Part shown: one piece after another, positions 13,187 through 32,693 of the stretch
Position numbering within the stretch: the stretch's first letter is position 1
How the letters are laid out: each line of letters starts with the position of its first letter
Source: Desulfotignum sp.
Lineage (GTDB): Bacteria > Desulfobacterota > Desulfobacteria > Desulfobacterales > Desulfobacteraceae
Direction of reading: 5' to 3'
NCBI GenBank assembly: GCA_011389555.1
Contig: JAABUD010000058.1
Location: 1-33,419, forward strand
DNA length: 33,419 nucleotides
Program-made: the position numbers and the translations under genes
Notes under the pieces: model-generated
Database searches by the model: none
The model's input: the letters and a program-made list of their open reading frames with translations, nothing else
What the model was told of the DNA's origin: nothing

Positions 13187-13279
13187 GGAGAGGTGGCCGA
13201 GCGGCTGAAGGCCCTGCTCTCGAAAAGCAGTATCCCGGCAAAACCGGGATCGTGGGTTCGAATCCCACCCTCTCCGCCA
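13187..13279 (+). tRNA. tRNA-Ser (anticodon CGA)
   Basis: A 93-nt class II tRNA with acceptor stem ggagagg / cctctcc, discriminator G and an encoded CCA. The anticodon stem ctgct/agcag closes loop CTCGAAA, giving anticodon CGA (reads UCG). The long variable arm tcccgg...ccggga is diagnostic of serine, and the T arm has GGTTCGAATCC. Confidence 0.97.
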
Positions 13280-23501: not shown

Positions 23502-24674
23502 TTATACCATTTTACCATCTTTCCAGAAAGGAGACATGGCCCGGAGGGTTTCAATGGCCGGAACCAGGGTCTTCACGATATGATCCATCTCCTCTTTGGT
23601 ATTGTAATGGGACAGGGAAAACCGGAGGGTCCCGTGGGCGGATTTGAACGGCACCTTCATGGCCATGAGCACATGGGAAGGGTCCAGGGAACCCGAGGTA
23701 CAGGCTGATCCAGATGAAGCACAGATCCCTTCCCTGTCCAGCATCATCAAAATCGATTCTCCTTCCACCGCGTCAAACCCGATGGACAGGGTATTGGGCA
23801 GCCGGGTTTCCCATTCGCCGTTCACAGAAACTCCGGGTATTTTTTCCAGCAGCTGACTCTGCAGATAATCCCGCAGTTCTTTCACCTGAGTGCCCACGAG
23901 CGGCAGGTGCTGAGCCGCCAGTTCGCAGGCTTTTCCCAGACCGATGATGGACACCGTGTTTTCCGTACCGCCCCGGCGGCCCTTTTCCTGGTGACCGCCG
24001 ATGAGATAGGGATGAAACTTGATCCCTTTTTTCACGTACAGCACACCGATGCCCTTGGGCGCGTGAATCTTGTGGCCGGACAGAGACAGCAGGTCCACTC
24101 CGGCCGCTGTCACGTCAATGGGGACCTTGCCGGCCGCCTGCACCGCATCGGTGTGAAACAAAATCCCTTTTTCCGTGACCTTTTTTGCGATTTCAGGTAT
24201 GGGAAACATCACACCGGTTTCATTGTTGGCCCACATCAGGGAGACAATGGCGGTATCGTCGGTCAGGCTGTCATAGAGCATATCCAGGTCCAGGCGCCCT
24301 TTTTTGTCCACCGGCACGAACACCGCCTCATACCCTTTTTTGTCTTGCAGATACGTAAACAGGTTCAATATGGCCGGATGCTCCACATTGGAGGTGATGA
24401 TCCGTTTTTTGTCCGGATTCGCGTTCAGGGCTGAAAAAACGGCACTGTTGTCACTTTCCGTGCCGCAGGAGGTGAACACGATCTCCCCCGGGTCGGCATG
24501 AATCAGATCTGCCACCTTTTGCCTGGACTGTATGAGTTTTTTGCCCACCTGGTCCCCGAAAGTATGCATGGAAGACGGGTTCCCATAGTATTCCCCGAAA
24601 TAGGGCACCATCTCTTCAATGACTTCATCCGCCACTTTTGTGGTGGCGTTGTTGTCTGTATAGATCACTTTCAT
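23502..24674 (-). CDS. nifS: Cysteine desulfurase, NifS type
   Basis: A 390-residue PLP enzyme of class V aminotransferase fold, group I desulfurase. PLP-binding SLSGHKIHAPKG carries the Schiff-base lysine. HTDAVQAAG and GGTENTVSI are conserved, and the flexible catalytic loop has SSGSACTSGS with the persulfide cysteine. It transfers sulfur from cysteine to the scaffold encoded immediately upstream. The start at 24674 (MKVIYTDNNATT) has AAAGGA eight bases ahead; the frame runs open to 24740 without meaning because it overlaps nifU. In a selenocysteine-using cell it may also mobilise selenium, which is speculation. Confidence 0.93.
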   Translation of the reverse strand: MKVIYTDNNATTKVADEVIEEMVPYFGEYYGNPSSMHTFGDQVGKKLIQSRQKVADLIHADPGEIVFTSCGTESDNSAVFSALNANPDKKRIITSNVEHPAILNLFTYLQDKKGYEAVFVPVDKKGRLDLDMLYDSLTDDTAIVSLMWANNETGVMFPIPEIAKKVTEKGILFHTDAVQAAGKVPIDVTAAGVDLLSLSGHKIHAPKGIGVLYVKKGIKFHPYLIGGHQEKGRRGGTENTVSIIGLGKACELAAQHLPLVGTQVKELRDYLQSQLLEKIPGVSVNGEWETRLPNTLSIGFDAVEGESILMMLDREGICASSGSACTSGSLDPSHVLMAMKVPFKSAHGTLRFSLSHYNTKEEMDHIVKTLVPAIETLRAMSPFWKDGKMV

Positions 24675-24679
24675 TTGGA

Positions 24680-25243
24680 TTATCCTTTGGCTTTGACAGA
24701 GTCGATCACCTCTTCGATCCGGTCCAGGCATTTGCCGCATCCGCCGCCGGCTTTCAGATAATGGGTGACATCCTCGGTGGTTTCCAGGCCGTTGGCCTTG
24801 ACCGCGTCAATGATTTCCAGATCGGTCACTTCAAAACATTCACACACCAGTTCTCCGGGTTTTTCCATAATCTGTACCCCCCGGTAATCGGCAATGGCTT
24901 TTTTCAAAGCAGACTTGCCCATGACGGAACAATGCATTTTTTCCTTGGGCAGTCCCCCCAGAAAATCGGCAATATCCTCATTGGTGACTTTGGCTGCCTC
25001 ATCCAGGGTCATGCCCTTGATGATCTCGGTCAGGGCGGAAGAAGATGCCACGGCACTGGCACAGCCGAATGTCATGAAAGACGCGTCCACAATCCGCTCG
25101 TTCTCATTCACTTTCAAGTACAGCTTCAATGCATCCCCGCAGTTCAGGGACCCGGTTTCTCCAATGGCATTGGCATCCTTGAGCTCCCCCACGTTTCGAG
25201 GGTGCAGAAAATGTTCCTTGACTTTGTCTGTATAATCCCACAT
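24680..25243 (-). CDS. nifU: NifU-like Fe-S scaffold (IscU domain plus BFD-type [2Fe-2S] domain)
   Basis: A 187-residue protein. Its IscU-type domain has ligand cysteines C35, C61 and C105, and its central BFD-like domain has C134, C136, C169 and C172 for a permanent [2Fe-2S] cluster. The third, C-terminal NfU domain of classical NifU is absent, as in many anaerobes. It builds nascent clusters with sulfur from the neighbouring desulfurase. AAGGAG lies seven bases before the ATG at 25243. It is first in the operon nifU-nifS-SLC13, and its promoter carries the palindrome shared with the cysteine operon. Confidence 0.92.
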   Translation of the reverse strand: MWDYTDKVKEHFLHPRNVGELKDANAIGETGSLNCGDALKLYLKVNENERIVDASFMTFGCASAVASSSALTEIIKGMTLDEAAKVTNEDIADFLGGLPKEKMHCSVMGKSALKKAIADYRGVQIMEKPGELVCECFEVTDLEIIDAVKANGLETTEDVTHYLKAGGGCGKCLDRIEEVIDSVKAKG

Positions 25244-28086: not shown

Positions 28087-28662
28087 TCAATAATTTTCAC
28101 ACAGCCGCTCAAACCAGCCGGTCGCTCGCACACAGGCCGGACATTTATCCGGCGCTTTTTCTCCGGTATGGATATATCCGCACCCCAGGCACCGCCACTG
28201 AATCGGCACCTCATCCTGAAAAATCCGTGTGGATGCGATATTTTCAGCCAAATGCCGGAACAGTTTTTCATGATGGTTTTCCGCCACAATAATGGCATCC
28301 AACGTATCCGCAGCCCGGATAAACCCTTCCTCCCGGGCGGTTTGAGCAAATTTTGCATACATGTCGTTGCCCACGTAATTTTCCAGCTCTGCAGATGAGA
28401 GCAGGTTGGAGCGGGTATCTTCGATCACGCCTGCCGGAAAATGCCAGTGGATGGTCAACTCGCCGCCGTTGAAAAACTTGAAAAACCGCAGGGCATGCTC
28501 AAATTCCTGGGCAGCGGTTTCATCGAACAGTTTGCCGATCTGAACATACCCTTCATCCCTGGCCTTGTTGGCAAAAAAATTGTACCGGGTTCTGGCCTGG
28601 GCTTCTGCGGCAAAAGAGGTATGCAGGTTCACCGCGGTCCTGCTTTCCCGGAATTTTCCCAT
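28087..28662 (-). CDS. rbr: Rubrerythrin
   Basis: A 191-residue protein with an N-terminal ferritin-like diiron domain (first helix EAQARTRYNFFA, then ETAAQEFEHALRFF and IIVAENHHEKLFRHL supplying Glu/His ligands). A C-terminal rubredoxin-like domain has CLGC and CPAC for one FeS4 site. It reduces hydrogen peroxide in anaerobes, taking electrons from rubredoxin-like carriers. It is the last gene of the redox operon, 30 bp after the ferredoxin gene. Confidence 0.95.
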   Translation of the reverse strand: MGKFRESRTAVNLHTSFAAEAQARTRYNFFANKARDEGYVQIGKLFDETAAQEFEHALRFFKFFNGGELTIHWHFPAGVIEDTRSNLLSSAELENYVGNDMYAKFAQTAREEGFIRAADTLDAIIVAENHHEKLFRHLAENIASTRIFQDEVPIQWRCLGCGYIHTGEKAPDKCPACVRATGWFERLCENY

Positions 28663-28978: not shown

Positions 28979-30112
28979 TTATTGTCCGGTTTCCCCCGCC
29001 TGGAATCGTTTCATGAATTTTGTATCAATATAATCCTTGATTGTAAAGGCAAGCCTGCCGCTGAACACGATATTTTTTTTCTTGAGCACGCCCTGCCCCC
29101 CGCCCAGGTTGAACACCAGCAGGTAATCCGGTCCGGGGTCAAACGACTTGAGTGGCCGGCCGTCCAGGGCTGCCATCAGATTATGGAGCAGCACCGGATT
29201 CTGCCGGACCGCATACACCCCGACCTTGTCCAGAGGCTGCGGCTCAAAAAAGATACAATCACCGCCCCCGAAGATCTGCGGGTCTGTCACACTCTGAAGA
29301 TACGGGTTTACCCGCAGCCCTTTGTCCGGCCCCACGGCCAGACCGGAATCCTCAAAAATCGGGGACGGAATGACGCCGGATGCCATAAAGGTAAAATCCG
29401 TGTCAACCCGCTGCCCGGATTCCAGGGTGATATCAGATCGCGTCACTGACCGCACCCGGGCATTTTCCTGGATAACGATACCCCGTTTCTCCAGGATCCG
29501 CTTCACCCGGGACCGGATCTTTTCCCCGAACCGGCCCATGAACCCGGAACCGCATAAAATGCGGATTTCAGGCATGTGCCCGCCCCTGTCCCGGGCCAGC
29601 TGCCACACATTGCCGGCCACCTCGGCGGAAGACGGTCCCCCGCCCACCACGTTCACCCGGGCCGGTTTTTCGTCAAAAAGGACCTGCAGTGCGGCCGAGG
29701 CATCCATCAGCTGTTCAATGGGCTTGACCGGATACAGATTGGCCGGCCGGTCTTGTTCAGGGATTTCCGTTTCCGGCAAAGGAATATAGGAGCCGGCATT
29801 CAAGGAAACCACATCATACCCGATCCGGGTGCCGGACCGGGTCTTGACCTGGCGGTCCCCGGGCATGATCTGCGTCACCCGGTCTGTGACAAACTCGCCG
29901 CCCCGGCTTTCCACCTCCTTTCGGGTGGCAAACCGGATCCGCTCCGGAGAATAGGTCCCTCCCAGCATGCCCGGCCCCATACCCGAATAATAATGAAAAT
30001 CCGACGGACCGATCACCGTGACCCGGTACCCTTTTTCAACGAATTTGTCTATATTGGCCAGGGTGACCATATGGGCATGGCCGCCCCCCACCAGAACCAG
30101 ATGTTTTTTCAT
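28979..30112 (-). CDS. FAD-dependent pyridine nucleotide-disulfide oxidoreductase, related to SelD-associated family
   Basis: A 377-residue flavoprotein of the NDH-2/sulfide:quinone-reductase fold. The FAD-binding motif is VLVGGGHAHM (residues 6-15) and a second Rossmann motif is VNVVGGGPSSAEVAG (153-167). FGGGDCIFFE precedes the C-terminal FAD contact. GGGHAH with YYSGMGPGML is the hallmark of the family found fused N-terminally to selenide-water dikinase (TIGR03169-like); here it stands alone. It probably oxidises NAD(P)H or a sulfur/selenium compound and feeds the adjacent ferredoxin. The gene lies 27 bp after the rhodanese-ferritin gene. Family placement relies on motifs; the substrate is unknown. 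Confidence 0.8.
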   Translation of the reverse strand: MKKHLVLVGGGHAHMVTLANIDKFVEKGYRVTVIGPSDFHYYSGMGPGMLGGTYSPERIRFATRKEVESRGGEFVTDRVTQIMPGDRQVKTRSGTRIGYDVVSLNAGSYIPLPETEIPEQDRPANLYPVKPIEQLMDASAALQVLFDEKPARVNVVGGGPSSAEVAGNVWQLARDRGGHMPEIRILCGSGFMGRFGEKIRSRVKRILEKRGIVIQENARVRSVTRSDITLESGQRVDTDFTFMASGVIPSPIFEDSGLAVGPDKGLRVNPYLQSVTDPQIFGGGDCIFFEPQPLDKVGVYAVRQNPVLLHNLMAALDGRPLKSFDPGPDYLLVFNLGGGQGVLKKKNIVFSGRLAFTIKDYIDTKFMKRFQAGETGQ

Positions 30113-30139: not shown

Positions 30140-30982
30140 TTATACCGGCCCTTTCAGGCGGTCCATCAGTTTTCCCAGACGCGCCAGATGATGGTTTTCC
30201 TCTCCGGCGATCTGCAGGACAACCGCTCTGGCATCCGGATCCGTCACCTGTCCGGCAACCCGCTGATACAGATCCAGGGCCTGGGCCTCGATGGACATCG
30301 CCATGGAAACCACTTCGGTTTCCACAGACAGGTCCGGGTCGAACAGATCCAGATACTGTTTTGTGGTCAAGCCACCTTCCAGGGCCGACATGGTGACCAT
30401 GGCTTCAAACCCTTCCCGGGATATTGCCGGGTCCACCATCTTCTGATACCGGTCAAACACCTGATCCTGGTGTTTCACCTCGATGTCGGCCAGCCTGCCG
30501 AACAGGTCTTTGACTGCATCGTTTCGGGCCTGGCCCGCCATATCCTGGTAAAACCGCTGCAATCCCTGCTCCATGGAATAGGCGATGACAAGAAAATCTG
30601 TGACTGATTCCCGGCCCTCGAACAGATCCATGCCCAGGGTCTGAGGTCCCACAGCGGTTTTGAATTTCCATGCCTTGATCCCGCCGGACACATTGTATAC
30701 CTGTTTGAACCCTTTGCCTGCAAGCATCTGGGCAGCCACCCGGCTGCGCCCGCCCACGGCTCAGTAAACCAGGGTGGGTTTGTCCGGATCCAGCTCCGCT
30801 GCCCGGTCCGACAGTTCGGGCAGCGGAATCAGCACTGCGCCCGGAATATGGGACTCTTTGTATTCACCGGACTGCCGCACATCCAGAATGGTAATCTCAT
30901 CTGGATCATGATCTGAAATCATCTGTTGCGTTTCAATGACATCTTTGGATTTGACCGGGGTCAAAAACTGCATCCATTTCAT
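30140..30982 (-). CDS. Selenocysteine-containing rhodanese fused to a ferritin-like diiron domain
   Basis: One frame of 281 codons with TGA at 30761-30763 (codon 74). Residues 1-110 are a rhodanese domain (ITILDVRQSGEYKESHIPGAV, then LVY-U-AVGGRSRVAAQML). The TGA falls exactly on the catalytic cysteine of the VYCxxGxRS active-site loop, which argues for selenocysteine rather than mutation. Residues ~125-280 are a ferritin-like four-helix domain (AYSMEQGLQRFYQDMA, DIEVKHQDQVF, MSIEAQALDLYQRVA, AGEENHHLARL) with diiron-type Glu/His ligands. The start at 30982 has AAGGAG upstream. It sits between SagB-like and FAD-oxidoreductase genes in the redox operon. An automated caller would split it or lose its first 74 residues. 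Confidence 0.88.
30730..30760 (-). promoter_or_regulatory. Bacterial SECIS hairpin of the rhodanese-ferritin mRNA
   Basis: Just downstream of the TGA, GCAGCC-GGGU-GGCUGC (30732-30747) forms a perfect 6-bp stem with a GGGU loop. It is extended by two G-C pairs past a bulged C. The loop starts 20 nt after the UGA and opens with GG, as in known bacterial SECIS elements recognised by SelB. Folding was done by eye. Confidence 0.75.
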
Positions 30983-31000: not shown

Positions 31001-32527
31001 CTATTTGACAGGTCCTGCCGATACCGCGTAAAGCAATACACTGCCCGGGCTCAAACCCAGCAGGGCCGCCGCTTCTTTGTCATACATGGCTCCGATACCG
31101 CAGCATCCCAGCCCCAGCTCCTGGGCCGCGATATACAGGCGCTGGCCGATTCGGCCGGCATGCATCATCACATACCGGTACCCTCTGGCACCCAGGGCTG
31201 CTTCCACTGCGGTCAGGTCCGCTGCAAACAAGAAATTCATGGCTGCCCGGCCGATCCATGCCTGGTCCAGGCATACCCGGGCCAGGTCGTCTGCCAGGTC
31301 CCCCGTCTGCCGGCAGGCCAGGGCAGCCCCATCCCGGGAAAACGAATACAGCCCCGGGGACAACCCTTCCATGTGCTGGCTGATCATTGCTACGGTAACA
31401 AATCGATCGGCTGCGGCCCCGGTTTCATCCGGGGCCGGTCCGGTAAACATGCGGGTGAACACCCGGTAAAAAAAAGCGGACCACACCGATTCCGGCAGGT
31501 TTCGGGAAGAAAAGTTGCGGCGGGAACGCCGGCGGGTGACGGCATGAAGAAAAGACATGGTCTCAAATTGTCCCGGTTCGGGCACCGACAGCATCGGGTC
31601 CGGTTTTTGAGTGAAAACCTCCGGATCCTGTTCAACCGCCCGGGGCTGCGCAATCGGGATGCCTGCCTGATACGCGGTTTTCAGTATGTCATAAACCACC
31701 GGAGTCACCTGTTCAGGTCCGGATTCGGCCGGCTGAAACGGTTTCGCATCATCCTTCTTGTCCAGGGCGGTTTCTGGACCCAGAAAAATACATGCCAGGG
31801 GCACTTCCAGAGAATCATCCAGATTCAGGCCCTCAACCAACCCCTGATCATTGAAATCGTAACAGAGCCGGGCACAGACCCCCGCGGCCCGGGCCGCCTG
31901 CAACACAGCTTCGGCCAGATGCCCGGCATCCAGCAGCAGGTACCGGAAGGCCCGCTCCCGGTATTTCCAGGCGGAATGGTAAAAAATCCCGGTGATGACC
32001 AGGCAGGCACCTGCCGGGTCCCGGTCCGGACCAATGGTTTCCTGGTCCAGAGGCCGGGCATTGATCCTGCCCAGAAATCCCTGGACCGTATCACAATAAT
32101 ACAAACCTGTCTCAACATCATCGACCTGTTGCGCCGACAGATACACCTGACACGGATACAATCCCCCTGCGGAAGGCACACTCCGGAATAAAACACCCCG
32201 GGCCCTGTCCGCCAGGGTCACGCCATAAGACAGGGCCAAAATCCGGGAGACCGTTTCCAGGTCCATTTTTTCCTGATCCGGAACCTCCCCGGCCATCACC
32301 TGTCCCACCGAAACATTCAGGTCGGTAAGGTCCTGATTGCCGCTCCGGTCCCCGCGAAAGCCGCCCCCCTGGTTCAAGGGAATCCGGGCCGGATATTCAT
32401 AGGTCTTGAAAGGCACCGGGTATCTGGAAAAATCCAGGGAATGAGGCGTAATCCGGTGCCGGATATGACTGGTGCGGTCATGGTATCGGACCGCCGACAC
32501 CATCGGATCAGGTATTGTCCGGCCCAT
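31001..32527 (-). CDS. SagB-type dehydrogenase (double nitroreductase-fold flavoprotein)
   Basis: A 508-residue protein of two nitroreductase-like halves. The first contains RSVPSAGGLYPCQVYL and YHSAWKYRERAFRYLLLDAGHLAEA. The second starts with the FMN-phosphate motif RRRSRRNFS and ends with GLGCCGIGAMYDKEAAALLGL. SagB/ThcOx relatives oxidise azolines in peptide synthesis, but stand-alone double-domain forms are common in anaerobes with no precursor peptide; none is seen here. AGGAGG lies three bases before the ATG at 32527; starts at 32530 or 32542 are possible. The start region overlaps the end of the preceding zinc-ribbon gene. A general NAD(P)H:flavin redox role is likely. Confidence 0.82.
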   Translation of the reverse strand: MGRTIPDPMVSAVRYHDRTSHIRHRITPHSLDFSRYPVPFKTYEYPARIPLNQGGGFRGDRSGNQDLTDLNVSVGQVMAGEVPDQEKMDLETVSRILALSYGVTLADRARGVLFRSVPSAGGLYPCQVYLSAQQVDDVETGLYYCDTVQGFLGRINARPLDQETIGPDRDPAGACLVITGIFYHSAWKYRERAFRYLLLDAGHLAEAVLQAARAAGVCARLCYDFNDQGLVEGLNLDDSLEVPLACIFLGPETALDKKDDAKPFQPAESGPEQVTPVVYDILKTAYQAGIPIAQPRAVEQDPEVFTQKPDPMLSVPEPGQFETMSFLHAVTRRRSRRNFSSRNLPESVWSAFFYRVFTRMFTGPAPDETGAAADRFVTVAMISQHMEGLSPGLYSFSRDGAALACRQTGDLADDLARVCLDQAWIGRAAMNFLFAADLTAVEAALGARGYRYVMMHAGRIGQRLYIAAQELGLGCCGIGAMYDKEAAALLGLSPGSVLLYAVSAGPVK

Positions 32528-32693
32528 CATCCTCCTGGACATCCGCTTCCATCTTCATCATGCACTCATGACATTCCAGCTCGATATTGGGCACATCCCC
32601 ATATTTTTCCTTGATCTCCTCTTCGGTCATAGCGGCTGTGCCGGTACATCCGCACCGGGGGCAGGACGTGCTGATTCGGTATTTTTTGCCCAT
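32508..32693 (-). CDS. Small zinc-ribbon-like protein
   Basis: A 61-residue protein with CPRCGC near the N terminus and CHEC near the C terminus, giving two CxxC pairs, plus acidic tail residues. This fits a zinc ribbon or rubredoxin-like metal knuckle. The spacing between pairs (~25 residues, EEIKEKYGDVPNIE) is typical. AGGAGG lies five bases before the ATG. It is encoded between the rubredoxin-like and SagB-like genes with overlap at its 3' end. Function unknown. Confidence 0.75.
   Translation of the reverse strand: MGKKYRISTSCPRCGCTGTAAMTEEEIKEKYGDVPNIELECHECMMKMEADVQEDDGPDNT

Follow-up and report, generated by a model that had tools for sequence, protein, structure and literature searches.

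Does the single TGA inside a long minus-strand frame of this Desulfotignum contig end a gene, or is it read as selenocysteine in the active site of a two-domain protein, and what might such a protein do? The window, by which we mean the whole stretch of DNA analysed (33,419 nucleotides), is an entire contig from the draft genome (G000) of a sulfate reducer of the Desulfobacteraceae. A sequence-only reading had proposed that the TGA replaces the catalytic cysteine of a rhodanese fused to a diiron ferritin-like domain.

The frame and its two domains

The gene (30140-30982, minus strand) encodes a predicted protein of 280 aa: positions 30982-30143 make up 280 codons, among which codon 74 (30763-30761) is the sole in-frame TGA, and a TAA stop follows at 30142-30140. 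The TGA stands where the rhodanese loop U-A-V-G-G-R has its catalytic residue, within the motif VY-U-AVGGRSRVAA, just as the sequence-only reading had spelled it without naming a strand. Translation of the plus strand over 30140-30982 gave nothing recognisable, and a gene in that orientation was rejected in favour of the 280-codon minus-strand frame. The rhodanese domain spans residues 18-106 (30665-30931, minus strand; PF00581, 79.1 bits against a cut-off of 22.2) and the ferritin-like domain residues 129-273 (30164-30598, minus strand; PF02915, 49.2 bits against a cut-off of 22.8). With both Pfam domains above threshold and a full set of diiron ligands, the fusion itself is borne out. None of the NCBIfam models reached its own cut-off with the fusion protein, and standard annotation would therefore probably truncate it at the TGA. 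Each half has solved relatives, namely 3nta, 3icr and 8a56 for the rhodanese and TM1526 (1vjx) for the ferritin-like domain, and in the PDB sequence and profile comparison no listed best stretch spans both halves. The six-residue C/U-x4-R loop of the rhodanese is presumably of sulfurtransferase length, rather than that of a phosphatase or arsenate reductase.

By motif, the ligands of the ferritin-like half are E138, E168xxH171, E232 and E262xxH265, and these six residues are invariant in 114 of 114 aligned rows. Helix C reads E232-A-Q-A235, and no fewer than 90% of 63 rows have A235. Rubrerythrins are defined by a second helix-C glutamate (ExxE), and an E/ExxH/E/ExxH series that does without it is what we take to be the bacterioferritin-type ligand set. 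The ferritin-like half is predicted to be a diiron carboxylate domain with a ligand set of this type. The fusion resembles rubrerythrins in its match to PF02915 and in its pairs of diiron carboxylate motifs; it differs in having alanine where they have the second helix-C glutamate and in the absence of a rubredoxin domain, since profile searches of the fusion for such a domain or for PF21349 found none, though the neighbouring rubrerythrin has one. Lacking both the domain and the second glutamate, the fusion is therefore not a rubrerythrin. Profile comparison also linked the fusion weakly to encapsulated ferritin-like proteins.

Codon 74 across relatives and the sequence behind it

Relatives were gathered from 86 genomes of the family and from the best 80 of at least 548 loci in a named genome collection, with duplicates removed. 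Among 112 distinct relatives with the GGR loop, a set that includes those best 80 of at least 548 loci, codon 74 is TGA in 67, a cysteine codon (TGC or TGT) in 45 and nothing else in any, which upholds the proposal that selenocysteine takes the place of the catalytic cysteine. This set omits three Cys rows with a different loop (L076, L077 and L078, giving 45 instead of 48), as well as L161 and L164, removed earlier as duplicates, the copies common to both genome collections, removed by sequence, and L079, a 30%-identical paralogue. The best 80 of at least 548 loci in the named collection by themselves show 44 TGA and 36 Cys, and a wider sample of 46 loci, including that of the window (L170), shows 19 TGA, 26 Cys and one locus with no readable motif.

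The rhodanese residues D34, R36, R79 and Cys/Sec74 are invariant in 114 of 114 rows, and the median identity of the 113 other rows to the window protein is 58% over residues 10-73 and 54% over residues 75-274. Relatives that end at the TGA with an eroded frame beyond it were not seen; both domains are conserved past this codon. A mechanically called ORF of 205 aa does begin at a GTG just past the TGA, as would be expected if the codon were an ordinary stop, arising from a pseudogene, a sequencing error or a pair of genes (a 73-aa remnant and the 205-aa ORF). However, the same TGA recurs in 67 distinct genes, no other stop stands at this position among the 112, the second half of the rhodanese and the diiron ligands are conserved, and the Cys homologues run continuously through the site, all of which makes an ordinary stop extremely improbable. 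Judged by the Sec/Cys comparison and by the presence of selC, selB, selA and selD, the gene almost certainly encodes a genuine selenoprotein in which UGA74 (30761-30763, minus strand) is read as selenocysteine.

On a quick tree of 115 rows, in which many forks are weakly supported and some branches are long, at least 15 changes between Sec and Cys are counted, at least 9 of them forced by starred branches. Such repeated exchange among close relatives means that the benefit of selenium to a rhodanese can be tested with natural variants. Of 395 sampled genomes from the phylum of the window (Thermodesulfobacteriota, to judge by its named relatives), 83 contain a match at E<=1e-60. These matches number 84, and an in-frame TGA is present in 31 of them; its position was verified for the fetched loci only. 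The predicted selenoprotein is widespread in its phylum. Many genomes of the same family also encode a putative second family of rhodanese/ferritin-like fusions, about 25-31% identical and free of in-frame stops (for example L079, at G029:C1:1206441-1207205).

The coding sequence just 3' of the UGA is predicted to form a SECIS-like hairpin, GCAGCC-GGGT-GGCTGC (30732-30747, minus strand), which begins at the 14th nucleotide after the TGA. The 6-bp GC-rich stem with a GGGU loop that had been described 14 nt past the TGA was indeed found there (30747-30732). Counting the TGA as nt 1-3, the core pairs join nt 17-21 with nt 28-32, and all five are present in 65 of the 67 TGA genes versus 11 of the 45 Cys genes of the 112-relative set. 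The third base of the Ala83 codon must be T because it pairs with A19 to close the stem; this codon is GCT in 65 of 67 TGA genes versus 14 of 45 Cys genes, and GCT accounts for 15% of the other alanine codons in the TGA genes. Of the 11 conserved alanine columns of the TGA genes, Ala83 varies least (97% with one codon) and none but it has settled on GCT; the runner-up, at 87%, uses GCC, the commonest codon.

If a helix of at least 5 bp is accepted in any register, with its loop starting 18-28 nt in, 80 of 81 TGA genes contain one versus 36.4 (sd 4.3) expected from synonymous shuffles; the Cys genes also exceed their expectation (40 of 72 versus 29.3, sd 4.0). These 81 TGA and 72 Cys genes are those left after duplicate removal, the Cys set including loops left out of the 112-relative count. 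Covariation, scored on 63 of the 67 TGA segments with a structure derived from the same sequences, is reached by 0 or 1 of 500 shuffles, depending on the measure, and exceeds that of every slid version. In one gene (L133) two changes together preserve a stem pair and at the same time alter the protein, and six TGA genes (L165, L178, L188, L190, L195 and L197) form a register-shifted GAGCC/GGCTC stem at a similar distance from the TGA through other synonymous codons; the same shifted stem also occurs in one Cys gene (L127). Minimum-free-energy z-scores relative to synonymous shuffles, taken over stretches of 42 and 51 nt that start at the codon, did not differ significantly between Sec and Cys genes (p 0.21 and 0.08). 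A test of the Ala83 codon on phylogenetic pairs, which had too little power with just 8 pairs on starred branches, gave a median p of 0.25.

All four selenocysteine genes score over their cut-offs in the genome of the window (selA 592.8, selB 335.2, selC 76.9 and selD 373.4 bits), so that the objection of a missing selB or selC falls away. Its selD carries an in-frame TGA of its own and is located on another contig than the fusion. The window itself contains a tRNA gene (13187-13279, plus strand), its only match in an Rfam scan that returned no other family. This tRNA was rejected as selC: its score with the tRNA-Sec model, 36.4 bits, is under the cut-off, and ARAGORN assigns it as tRNA-Ser(CGA).

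More broadly, selA was found in 59 of 62 genomes of the family and 77 of 80 of the phylum sample, and in neither set does its presence separate Sec from Cys genomes. The family count covers 62 of 73 matching genomes, those with only paralogues or fragments being set aside (G003, G006, G008, G009, G010, G016, G018, G030, G035, G050 and G071), and the phylum count covers 80 of 83, with G000 counted in the family set and G224 and G363 left out. The three family genomes in which selA was not found (G065, G044 and G084) have the TGA form yet are drafts 78-92% complete, each with selD over the cut-off. In the phylum sample, G373 (98% complete; L199, G373:C144) has the Cys form and a broken hairpin, with selA absent and no selD over the cut-off; G448, a genome of the same genus (L200, G448:C221), has the TGA form, an intact hairpin, selA and selD. 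In G477 (90% complete), too, the Cys form goes with the absence of selA and of any selD over the cut-off, and the third phylum genome without selA is G163, which is 62% complete. From G373 and G477 it follows that the protein is retained, with cysteine, where the selenocysteine machinery was not found.

A flavoprotein partner and a proposed chemistry

Directly downstream of the fusion lies a gene for a 377-aa NDH-2-like FAD/NAD(P)H oxidoreductase (28979-30112, minus strand; PF07992), the best PDB sequence match of which is 9pxk YjlD, an NADH dehydrogenase-like protein. Of 101 distinct loci, 97 have 1 kb of downstream sequence, and in 79 of these 97 the flavoprotein gene is the first to follow on the same strand, no more than 400 nt away (48 of the 52 Sec loci and 31 of the 45 Cys loci); five loci (L064, L119, L132, L155 and L163) were scored as lacking it though tblastn shows one there. 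Of 45 further, mostly deeper loci, 15 have the flavoprotein next to the fusion, downstream in 7 and upstream in 8 (with partial matches in two of the latter); the other 30 do not, most of them with at least 1.5 kb of flank on each side. It is quite probable that fusion and flavoprotein are functionally paired in this branch of the family.

The partner belongs to the sequence family of the NDH-2 and TIGR03169 N-terminal-to-SelD flavoproteins, and TIGR03169 ('Nterm_to_SelD') is its best NCBIfam match, at 246.4 bits. This match would suit a role in selenium delivery, with the Sec rhodanese binding selenium as a perselenide and, together with a flavoprotein related to the domain that precedes SelD at its N-terminal side, supplying selenide to SelD. 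However, the score is under the cut-off of 310, the partner is not fused to SelD, and selD sits on that other contig; the idea is further weakened because genomes lacking selA and any selD over the cut-off (G373 and G477) keep the Cys form of the fusion, and we regard it as highly unlikely. No flavoprotein was found beside the fusion gene of G373; that of G477 is immediately preceded, at the contig edge, by a stretch that partly matches the flavoprotein (52.8 bits), and the pair may persist there too.

A parallel is offered by NADH-dependent persulfide reductase and the CoA-disulfide reductase-rhodanese fusions (3nta, 3icr and 8a56), in which a rhodanese is likewise paired with an FAD/NAD(P)H enzyme; the rhodanese half matches these structures by profile at 6e-13 to 6e-17. 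In those systems a single chain carries a redox cysteine on the flavin side, whereas here a separate NDH-2-like flavoprotein lacks a conserved one and the rhodanese shares its chain with a diiron domain. The sole invariant cysteine of the flavoprotein is Cys286, in GGGDC (80 of 80 rows), and its alignment contains no conserved redox disulfide, which sets it apart from the known persulfide reductases.

Overall, we lean towards a Sec-decoded fusion that combines sulfane-sulfur and diiron chemistry and is linked to NAD(P)H. By the comparative evidence, UGA74 is decoded as selenocysteine with the aid of the hairpin behind it; the rhodanese loop thus has a selenol where the catalytic thiol would otherwise stand, and the ribosome reads on into the ferritin-like domain with its complete E / ExxH / E / ExxH set. 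The selenol could then take sulfane sulfur from polysulfide or low-molecular persulfides as an Se-S(H) intermediate, and reduction of the Se-S bond would release the sulfur as sulfide, with electrons from NAD(P)H reaching the selenol site through the neighbouring NDH-2-like flavoprotein. The diiron domain might remove O2 or peroxide, or might act as the redox partner of the selenol, and in this manner a strict anaerobe that meets oxygen would dispose of it and of reactive sulfur with a single module. We advance this particular sulfane-sulfur and peroxide chemistry tentatively, and it may well prove to be otherwise. The sequence-only reading had suggested a selenol/persulfide peroxidase, or a sulfur-handling enzyme coupled to the reduction of oxygen or peroxide, and such activities are conceivable for this protein. 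Somewhat more doubtful is a selenium-iron enzyme in which the selenol and diiron sites of one chain cooperate, a dedicated flavoprotein feeds in NAD(P)H, and sulfane-sulfur reduction is coupled to the removal of O2 or peroxide in sulfate reducers. Should the two sites cooperate, defence against sulfur and oxygen would be linked in anaerobes, and a selenium-iron redox module of this kind, if real, is absent from the texts searched.

Rhodanese-like selenoproteins had been said to be known in Deltaproteobacteria, and the literature agrees: a 2026 review lists five forms, two of them with a UxxG motif, and its Table 1 credits form 2 to Zhang & Gladyshev 2005 (PMC13188914), while a rhodanese-like selenoprotein has been reported from a marine deltaproteobacterium (PMC8318568). 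Forms 2 and 4 (representatives MBM9537886.1 and MCY3690685.1) are like the fusion in having selenocysteine within a rhodanese domain and the UxxG motif, here UAVG; by their description in the table, which is the basis of this comparison, they differ in being given PF00581 alone, with no ferritin-like or rubrerythrin domain (PMC13188914). Form 2 or form 4 might nevertheless be identical to the fusion, under a one-domain label. Two other rhodanese selenoproteins are separated from it by score: against NF041203, the rhodanese-related (seleno)protein (form 3), the fusion reaches 45.7 with a cut-off of 115, and against NF045694, TsoB (form 5), 26.3 with a cut-off of 805, and it is a member of neither. 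The words 'ferritin' and 'rubrerythrin' are absent from the main texts of PMC13188914, PMC9312934, PMC2398784, PMC5029168 and PMC8318568, and the titles returned by a literature search for selenocysteine with rubrerythrin and rhodanese concern other subjects. Rhodanese selenoproteins are thus already known; no description of the fusion to a diiron domain or of the flavoprotein partner was found in the texts searched, and the fusion adds a well-supported, widespread selenoprotein architecture.

Other genes around the fusion

Further downstream on the same strand are nifU (24680-25243; TIGR02000, 286.7 bits against a cut-off of 273.3) and nifS (23502-24740; TIGR03402, 581.5 bits against 530.75), which lie 4.9 and 5.4 kb beyond the stop of the selenoprotein gene. 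Their position 5-6 kb away favours a different reading, in which the protein supplies iron and sulfur: the Sec/Cys rhodanese would give persulfide sulfur, the ferritin-like domain would store or oxidise iron, together aiding assembly or repair of Fe-S clusters, and the flavoprotein would reduce ferric iron or the persulfide. The same reading draws on the ligand set, which we take to be bacterioferritin-like, with its nearly invariant A235, and on the weak links to encapsulated ferritin-like proteins. However, among 101 loci, of which 51 extend 6 kb downstream, just 5 have a nifU-like cluster within that distance and four of the 5 are Desulfotignum-type, other genes intervene, and no further Fe-S assembly gene was recognised, as judged by eye, among the common neighbour clusters. 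We consider iron and sulfur supply unlikely, ranking it below the sulfane-sulfur and diiron chemistry that we prefer, and give the rest of our expectation, beyond the chemistries named here, to some other chemistry.

The rubrerythrin operon in which the fusion had been placed did not hold up, for the flavoprotein gene intervenes and is followed by a 316-nt gap. Beyond the gap, as the second gene downstream, is that for a rubrerythrin of 191 aa with a rubredoxin-like C-terminus (28087-28662, minus strand; NF045767, 218.2 bits against a cut-off of 200). Of 101 loci, 18 have a rubrerythrin gene no more than 6 kb away; the distance downstream is about 1.5 kb where the locus is of the Desulfotignum type and 3.6-4.1 kb elsewhere. 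Rubrerythrin was rejected as a constant operon partner, the NDH-2-like flavoprotein being the most constant neighbour. Classical rubrerythrins have the second helix-C glutamate within GExxExT. The neighbouring rubrerythrin has valine at this position, and of 19 aligned rows 17 lack the glutamate, which is present in L054 and L156 alone.

Upstream of the fusion by 18 nt, and in some loci only, is a gene for a SagB-type nitroreductase-fold protein with two nitroreductase stretches (31001-32542, minus strand). In 25 of 101 loci the flavoprotein gene is followed on the same strand by one for a fusion of a VTT membrane domain with a pyridine-nucleotide-disulfide oxidoreductase, the domains of which were checked in one locus (L048, 2195-4384, plus strand, 730 aa). 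A gene for a 1-Cys-type peroxiredoxin (PF00578 and PF10417) is adjacent upstream of the fusion gene in L174, and peroxiredoxin-related ORFs lie near L144 and L212.
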